A DNA stretch of 44,591 nucleotides from Candidatus Moraniibacteriota bacterium (GTDB lineage Bacteria > Patescibacteriota > Minisyncoccia > Moranbacterales > UBA2206): assembly GCA_026396175.1 (NCBI GenBank), contig JAPLXG010000006.1, forward strand, positions 140,492 through 185,082. Direction: 5' to 3'. Made by a program: the position numbers and the translations under genes. How positions within the stretch are numbered: position 1 is the stretch's first letter; each line of letters begins with the position of its first letter. Below the pieces are notes generated by a model. That model worked only from the letters and a program-made list of their open reading frames with translations, searched no databases and was not told the origin of the DNA. Shown piece by piece: positions 5,845-28,412 of this stretch.

Positions 5845-5976
5845 ATCCCCCACCACTTTTTTACTTTTATTTTATATCCAAGGTGGGTATCGTAGCGTTT
5901 AGTAAAAATTGTAAAATAATTTAATTAAAACATGCCCCAATTGCGCCATAGGCGTGAGTAAAAAAGTGGTGGGGGA
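5845..5976. repeat. 132-bp MITE-like element with perfect 20-bp TIR
   Basis: atcccccaccacttttttac ... gtaaaaaagtggtgggggat. Confidence 0.88.
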
Positions 5977-20680: not shown

Positions 20681-20792
20681 ATCCCGCACCAATTCCGACT
20701 GAGCCTTATTTTAGTGTATATTTTGTAGTGCGATTCGCCTAACGGCTTAAGAAAACGATAATCAAAGTTAATATTGTGAATTGGTGAGGGAT
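20681..20792. repeat. 112-bp MITE-like element with TIR related to the 5845 element
   Basis: atcccgcaccaattc ... gaattggtgagggat. Confidence 0.75.
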
Positions 20793-27721: not shown

Positions 27722-27851
27722 GGGCCATTAGCTTCCTCCAAAGGCGGACAAGCAGTTTCAGCCCAAGGCTGATCCGCCTCGGGCGGAGGTTAGAGCGCGC
27801 CCGCCACGGCGGGTAATGACGAGGTCGGAGATTCGAGTTCTCCATCGCCCA
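27722..27851 (+). pseudogene. tRNA-Ile-like gene interrupted by palindromes in D-loop and anticodon arm
   Basis: gggccattagctt[cctcc...ggagg]ttagagcgcg[cccgccacggcggg]taatgacgaggtcggagattcgagttctccatcgccca. Confidence 0.75.
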
Positions 27852-27916
27852 CATAGCACAAGATACAAGATACAAAATACAAAATACAAAATACAAAATA
27901 CAAGATACAAACTTTA

Positions 27917-28043: not shown

Positions 28044-28111
28044 GGGCGATTAGCTCAGTTGATCAGAGTGGACATTTGCTCAGTCGCAAATATCCTGATT
28101 ATGACGAGGCC
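28044..28111 (+). pseudogene. tRNA-Ile 5' remnant with hairpin at anticodon arm and no T-arm
   Basis: gggcgattagctcagttgatcagagt[ggacatttgc-tcagtc-gcaaatatcc]tgattatgacgaggcc. Confidence 0.75.
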
Positions 28112-28142
28112 TGTTTAAAATAAAAATATCCGTAGCATATAC

Positions 28143-28374
28143 GGGCGATTAGCTCAGTTGGTTAGAGCGTTCACCCCGCACCAAATTTTAATTAAGTAAG
28201 CCCGAAATGCAATAAGGGCGTATAGCTCAGTTGGTTAGAGCGCGTCACTGATAATGACGAGGTCTCTGGTTCGAGTCCAGATATGCCCACAAAGCTGAAT
28301 CATTGAAAAATTGAAATTTGGTGCGGGGCGAGCTGATAATGACGAGGTCCGAGGTTCGAGTCCCCGATCGCCCA
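28143..28374 (+). pseudogene. tRNA-Ile gene split at anticodon arm by about 155-bp insert with 15-bp perfect TIR
   Basis: 5' part 28143-28173, ccccgcaccaaattt 28174-28188, aaatttggtgcgggg 28314-28328, 3' part 28329-28374 ending gatcgccca. Confidence 0.75.
28216..28289 (+). tRNA. tRNA-Ile(GAT), intact, nested inside the split tRNA-Ile
   Basis: gggcgtatagctcagttggttagagcgcgtcactgataatgacgaggtctctggttcgagtccagatatgccca; complete cloverleaf. Confidence 0.95.
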
Positions 28375-28412
28375 CATCGCAAGTTTTCTTTTTAGGGAAG
28401 GATTAAAAAACG

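Follow-up and report, generated by a model that had tools for sequence, protein, structure and literature searches.

How does a complete tRNA gene come to lie within a broken gene for the same tRNA, and what becomes of the broken one? This question is raised by a locus in the window, i.e., the whole stretch of 44,591 nucleotides that was analyzed (G000:C16:140492-185082), which is part of a 976-kb draft genome of 16 contigs, here called G000. The named records of close relatives that carry the same right junction of the locus are Moranbacteria, phylum Patescibacteria.

A tRNA-Ile gene within a tRNA-Ile gene

Direct reading of the sequence revealed a split tRNA-Ile at positions 28143-28375, which is interrupted by an insert with the inverted repeats CCCCGCACCAAATTT/AAATTTGGTGCGGGG (Table 1). 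As the first-pass annotation had stated, these repeats are perfect over 15 bp (28174-28188 and 28314-28328); they extend imperfectly to 23 nt, with 91% complementarity. A complete tRNA-Ile(GAT) had been noticed within the insert, and this inner gene was called both by ARAGORN and in the proposed covariance search with cmscan, which gave it 72.6 bits. The outer split gene was called by neither program. Cmscan reported two tRNAs and nothing else in the window, and the inner gene is the only tRNA-Ile(GAT) among the 43 tRNA genes called in G000. The split of the outer gene was correctly described earlier, but the edges of its halves were not, since TTCA (28170-28173) and CGAG (28329-28332) are part of the insert; the order at the right junction is the arm AAATTTGGTGCGGGG, CGAG, and then CTGATAATGACGAGGTCCGAGGTTCGAGTCCCCGATCGCCCAC. 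The 5' part of the outer gene (28143-28169) matches the uninterrupted tRNA-Ile of the congeners G005 (L016) and G002 (L015). Compared with such uninterrupted relatives, the outer gene lacks CGTCA, the five nucleotides of the 5' anticodon-stem strand.

Dead tRNA-Ile copies lie upstream, at 27722-27852 and 28044-28115, and several relatives have similar ones beside their tRNA-Ile. A truncated copy like that at 28044-28115 is also present in the congener G003 (L010).

Table 1. Features of the nested tRNA-Ile locus and of related elements. Positions are those in the window, except where a locus of a relative (L) is named.
Feature	Position	Strand	Remarks
tRNA-less element	5846..5976	.	related arms TCCCCCACC...GGTGGGGGA
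tRNA-less element	20682..20791	.	110-bp repeat family, TCCCGCACC...GGTGAGGGA
Degenerate tRNA-Ile copy	27722..27852	+	palindrome in D loop; CCCGCCACGGCGGG in anticodon arm
Older truncated tRNA-Ile copy	28044..28115	+	hairpin GGACATTTGC/GCAAATATCC replaces CGTCA
Outer (resident) tRNA-Ile, 5' part	28143..28169	+	GGGCGATTAGCTCAGTTGGTTAGAGCG; acceptor strand, D arm, base 26
TTCA tail	28170..28173	+	outside left arm; common to cassettes of other genomes
Left inverted-repeat arm	28174..28193	+	first 15 nt perfect (CCCCGCACCAAATTT), rest imperfect
Inner tRNA-Ile(GAT), intact	28216..28290	+	carried in cassette; ARAGORN; cmscan 72.6 bits
Right inverted-repeat arm	28309..28328	+	perfect part AAATTTGGTGCGGGG at 28314-28328
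CGAG tail	28329..28332	+	outside right arm; CAAG or CNNG in other cassettes
Outer tRNA-Ile, 3' part	28333..28375	+	CTGATAATGACGAGGTC...CGCCCAC; anticodon loop, 3' anticodon-stem strand, T arm, acceptor strand
GIY-YIG genes at tRNA-Ile loci	L064 1557-1808; L084 ~1640-1906; L121 580-840; L016/L132

Recurrence of the locus and fate of the interrupted gene

The right junction (arm, CRAG, and CTGATAATGACGAGG) was found in 4 of the 133 genomes of the order, i.e., G000, G008, G030, and G041. It is also present in a Kuenenbacteria and a Doudnabacteria genome and in three more genomes of the class (G248, G331, and G161), and it had no match in viral contigs. A nested tRNA-Ile is found in seven other species, i.e., G030, G041, G008, G248, G161, the Kuenenbacteria, and the Doudnabacteria. 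In the Kuenenbacteria locus, the arms directly abut the inner tRNA, and in G248 and G161 the insertion looks nearly clean, just before base 32. At least two layers of nesting are present in G248, with a tRNA-Ile in a tRNA-Ile that itself lies in the D loop of a third; in the D-loop layer, the cassette ends are in the inverse orientation (CTTG...TGAA). A rearranged nested version was observed in G331 (C8, near 55769; L140), as a tangle of at least three tRNA-Ile pieces with halves swapped between cassettes. The sole tRNA that ARAGORN calls in L140 looks abnormal.

Two tRNA copies could have been wrongly merged during assembly, and the draft status of the genome, with its 16 contigs, as well as the repeated tRNA fragments near the locus could be taken to point in that direction. 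However, the same architecture recurs in many independent assemblies across phyla, with differing sequences and complementary arms, and for many different tRNAs (see below). Because of this recurrence, mis-assembly was rejected, and its probability is considered negligible. Thus, the concern voiced in the first-pass annotation that the arrangement might be absent from every independent assembly has been settled.

The survey of relatives that had been recommended uncovered empty sites in congeners as well as other tRNA-carrying cassettes. In most relatives, an uninterrupted tRNA-Ile lies beside tRNA-Ala. The outer tRNA-Ile halves of G000 match the uninterrupted gene of the congener G005. Those of G030 match its own congener G029; another congener of G030, G031, has an uninterrupted tRNA-Ile that matches the inner tRNA of G030. 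Since the outer halves carry the allele of the congeners and the inner gene differs, the outer gene is the resident one and the inner gene a different allele. The genes for tRNA-Tyr and tRNA-Glu are nested in G000 and G005 and intact, with the same neighbors, in G002. For tRNA-Arg(GCG), the outer halves of G000 are identical to the intact gene of G001, G002, and G004, and the inner gene is identical to that of G005. In the latter genome, the outer 5' half is gone, and replacement is thus nearly complete.

The outer genes decay. The outer tRNA-Ile copies contain palindromes in the D loop in G030 and G041 and in the T arm in the Kuenenbacteria and the Doudnabacteria, and the copy in G008 has lost most of its 5' half. 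In G035, the tRNA of the cassette is itself disrupted, and a third, intact tRNA follows.

This decay bears on a second possibility mentioned in the first-pass annotation, i.e., that the stem pairs the two halves of an interrupted tRNA. The outer halves would then form a working gene: RNase P and 3' end-processing enzymes would excise the inner tRNA from the transcript, and the stem would align the halves for joining, as in archaeal split tRNAs. The arms indeed pair perfectly and co-vary. Across eight independent loci, 12 pairs were compared, and 96 of 96 cells were paired despite the differing sequences; 7 of the 12 pairs had changed on both sides, and none of 500 shuffles scored as high. Moreover, the transcript is predicted to fold as a long stem holding the inner tRNA, far better than shuffled sequences do (z = -4.8), and neither the acceptor nor the D stem of the outer gene is damaged in the window or in L141. 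However, terminal inverted repeats are expected to co-vary too, so that the covariation demonstrates maintenance of the palindrome and not of an RNA stem. Furthermore, the outer gene in the window has no 5' anticodon-stem strand, the outer D or T arms have received the further inserts described above in G030, G041, the Kuenenbacteria, and the Doudnabacteria, G008 and, for Arg, G005 have lost one half, and cassettes also exist in D and T loops. A split or intron-containing tRNA was rejected because the outer halves, with extra palindromes or a lost half in several genomes, are not kept functional; a working interrupted tRNA is, therefore, very improbable.

Cassettes around other tRNAs and cassettes without a tRNA

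A search with the left junction revealed the same arms around other tRNAs. Arms with the consensus YCCCRCACC...GGTGYGGGR surround a complete tRNA, with a broken tRNA gene of matching identity outside them, and this cognate nesting was also found for Val, Glu, Arg, Gln, Met, Tyr, Thr, Pro, Ala, Gly, Leu, and Phe. Eight of the 43 tRNA genes of G000 are clear cases, i.e., Ile(GAT), Glu(TTC), Arg(GCG), Val(GAC), Met(CAT), Gln(CTG), Tyr(GTA), and Thr(TGT). Lys(TTT) and Leu(GAG), the latter with a decayed outer gene, are probably two further nested cases, which would make ten in total. The tRNA-Lys(TTT) (G000:C7:70362-70436; L247) lies in a split tRNA-Lys with a different inverted repeat, CGCCGGCTGGCGGA/TCCGCCAGCCGGCG. 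Since this repeat differs from the cassette arms, more than one repeat family may nest tRNAs.

The gapped pattern CCCGCACC...GGTGCGGG, with the two parts 61-121 bases apart, was detected in 43 of the 133 genomes of the order, as compared with one for the reversed-pattern control. Phylum-wide, it was present in 7 of 148 genomes, which, taken alone, is a weak count since it nearly equals that of the control (4 genomes). Several of the phylum-level matches hold tRNAs, one being a Leu(CAG) in a split Leu(CAG) in another family; the outer gene was absent in two of the five phylum-level matches examined.

Flanking repeats scoring at least 12 were present at 37 of 324 distinct tRNAs, vs. 0.2 expected from shuffled flanks, in a set that is enriched for repeats as many loci were fetched by the repeat itself. 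In nearly all of these 37 cases, the outer halves best matched a tRNA for the same amino acid. When the flanks were rejoined by a script, a tRNA was called across the junction in 21 of the 37 repeat-flanked cases and in 3 of 40 controls, which were neighboring tRNA genes. Wherever the insertion had spared the anticodon and the rejoined outer gene was called, its anticodon equaled that of the inner gene, i.e., in six D- or T-loop cases (Val(GAC), Arg(GCG), Met(CAT), Pro(TGG), Arg(TCT), and Gln(CTG)), and the same applies to the Leu(CAG) in another family. Insertion in the anticodon loop, by its nature, scrambles the anticodon of the rejoined gene.

Insertion sites were determined by reading the junctions against the inner tRNA, and a few are ambiguous because bases are missing. 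The first-pass annotation located the insertion in the anticodon arm, which is correct for the window; across the cassettes, the D and T loops are targets as well. The anticodon loop, or a position at its edge, was entered in Ile, Glu, Val(TAC), Val(GAC) of G044, Ala, Pro, and Thr, the D loop in Val(GAC) of G000, Met, Gln, and one layer in G248, and the T loop in Arg, Gly, Pro(TGG), and Tyr. Since the outer gene is dead anyway, selection is a less likely cause of the loop preference than the mode of insertion itself; entry into a folded single strand would be consistent with such a preference. Outside the arms, the cassettes have short tails, one of them being TTCA and the opposite one mostly CAAG, CGTG, or a similar sequence. 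In anticodon-loop cassettes, TTCA is mostly on the left; in D- and T-loop cassettes, it is inverted and on the right. The flanks of 108 elements contained TTCA/CAAG-type tails and no consistent target-site duplication.

The same arms also bound many elements of 65-130 bp without a tRNA, among which a type with CGGAATCGCCTGCGGCTTAG as its core and TGCTCATTTTTGTA as its flank is common. The resemblance of the insert to two such elements in the window (Table 1), which had been pointed out before, was borne out, as their arms are of the same family. One exact arm pattern alone has 5 dispersed copies in G000 and 17 in G008. Members of the dispersed palindromic family of ~110 bp with the above core and flank were seen in L164, L191, L228, L230, L231, and other loci, as well as at 20682-20791 in the window. 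Cmscan yielded no Rfam match besides tRNA in the window or in eight element loci. Another repeat, of ~50 bases around CTTCTCCCGGAGGGAGAAG, has some thirty copies in G000 (e.g., C7:13779-13832 and C14:34063-34113).

Origin of the cassettes and relation to known elements

The anatomy of the locus, its recurrence, the empty sites, the cognate match, the loop preference, and the decay of the old gene are probably best explained by a mobile palindromic cassette that kills the resident tRNA gene and supplies its substitute. A palindrome-bounded cassette of ~160 bp with a complete tRNA-Ile(GAT) would enter the resident tRNA-Ile at the edge of the anticodon loop. We infer that the cassette moves and that the enzyme responsible is encoded elsewhere: it would travel as a non-autonomous element able to form a hairpin, akin to the tRNA-less repeats with the same arms, and be mobilized in trans. 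Insertion would kill the resident gene, and the cell would survive because the cassette brings the same tRNA; the outer halves would subsequently decay. The original proposal of a terminal-inverted-repeat element that supplies a replacement tRNA is thus supported by the recurrence, the empty sites, the matching tRNA-less elements, and the many other tRNAs, movement being presumed.

The match between cargo and target could result from selection against every other combination, from recombination in which the halves of the split tRNA serve as homology arms, or from copying of the target gene during insertion. Cargo and target have the same identity in nearly all cases with an identifiable outer gene, the insertion is nearly always in a tRNA loop, and few tRNA cassettes lie outside broken tRNA genes. 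Random transposition filtered by viability should leave many cassettes elsewhere; the fact that few are seen suggests targeting or copying in place. In the latter case, insertion or repair of a palindrome at a tRNA loop would copy the whole gene into the hairpin, and the cassette would never travel with its cargo. Such a process would agree with the identity of cargo and target and with the fact that hardly any tRNA cassettes lie outside broken tRNA genes, and the near identity of the inner and outer Glu(TTC) and Tyr(GTA) genes of G000 leaves room for it. In contrast, neither the inner Arg(GCG) allele nor the inner Ile(GAT) allele equals that of the resident gene, two species have the same inner Arg allele, and the arm family is common to different families and phyla. 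Copying in place is, on the whole, unlikely, though it retains some weight beside the favored mobile cassette. A more far-reaching version of the latter, which is offered tentatively and is rather doubtful, holds that Patescibacterial cassettes recognize folded tRNA-gene loops, enter the cargo-cognate gene, and take over essential tRNAs successively, with repeated rounds leading to multilayer nesting.

Several candidate movers were considered. No transposase was linked to the arms. Genes for Y1_Tnp (IS200-type) exist, but not beside the elements, and the arms were only sporadic near the 29 Y1_Tnp loci of seven genomes; a Y1 (IS200-type) transposase was rejected because its genes are not adjacent to the elements. 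An integrase-mediated element at a tRNA site was dismissed as well, since the cassette is too small for an integrase gene and has a whole tRNA inside and both old halves outside, and so was a group I or II intron, as cmscan matched no intron core RNA in the window. Small GIY-YIG genes (Pfam PF01541, E 1e-11 to 3e-16) are found in the tRNA-Ile loci of four relatives. They start at or near the 3' end of tRNA-Ile and precede a hairpin and the displaced 3' half of a tRNA-Ile. The reading frame of those in L084 and L121 extends into the hairpin and has the TAA of the tRNA as its stop. The type of hairpin present in the anticodon arm of the copy at 27722-27852 also flanks the GIY-YIG genes in L064, L084, and L121. 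These genes are probably endonuclease elements that regenerate the tRNA entered. As the mover of the cassettes, the GIY-YIG endonuclease was rejected, since it adjoins a different hairpin (CCCGCC...GGCGGG) in a different layout.

MITEs and Rickettsia palindromic elements are short, non-coding, dispersed sequences bounded by inverted repeats, which are found within and between genes. The cassettes are likewise short, non-coding, and dispersed, lie in genes as well, and, as a family, have terminal inverted repeats and several dispersed copies per genome. They differ from MITEs by their tRNA cargo in a cognate tRNA gene, and no clear target-site duplication was seen in the 108 flanks; to our knowledge, neither tRNA cargo nor insertion in the cargo-cognate tRNA gene is known for MITEs or Rickettsia palindromic elements. 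Integrative elements with attachment sites in tRNA genes depend on an integrase, and their tRNA portion is usually limited to the 3' end. Cassettes share with them the targeting of tRNA genes and the working tRNA left to the cell; however, they measure ~105-165 bp, carry a whole tRNA and no integrase, and are flanked by both old halves. IS200/IS605 elements and the REP elements moved by RAYT have hairpin-forming ends and short conserved tails. The cassettes resemble them in these features, and the loop preference would agree with entry into single-stranded loops, but the cassette arms extend over the entire element, in place of a separate hairpin at either end, and the Y1 genes are non-adjacent. 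GTAG-tagged repeats offer a comparison of the REP/RAYT type (PMC3733652). In archaeal split and intron-containing tRNAs, the halves are separated by an insert with complementary ends (PMC4390854, PMC3218864), as they are around the cassettes; unlike in archaea, the insert contains a complete tRNA, the outer halves decay, and D and T loops are used as well. Mobile group I and II introns with endonucleases reside in rRNA genes of CPR bacteria (PMC10714607). These, too, are mobile inserts in RNA genes of the same bacteria, but the cassette contains no endonuclease and matches no intron family in cmscan.

No earlier description of a tRNA nested in a tRNA was found in the open-access papers that were searched. 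Palindromic elements and tRNA-restoring integrative elements are known kinds. The comparison suggests that a non-coding cassette carrying the whole gene that it destroys is new as far as found; on a stricter grading, the cassettes might be classed with palindromic mobile elements.

Mobile elements can normally not settle in an essential single-copy gene. By bringing along the gene that it destroys, a cassette would be freed from this limit and could spread through the tRNA genes of a genome. Destruction of a target would here be coupled with its rescue in a natural setting. If true, this would explain the replacement of tRNA alleles in reduced genomes. Whether insertion occurs into folded single-stranded tRNA genes and what causes the match between cargo and target have become directly testable questions. 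The finding is also of practical importance, since broken outer tRNAs, hidden from annotation, surround many working tRNA genes in these bacteria. Together, the data suggest an undescribed route of tRNA gene replacement, which recurs for many tRNAs across related bacteria.
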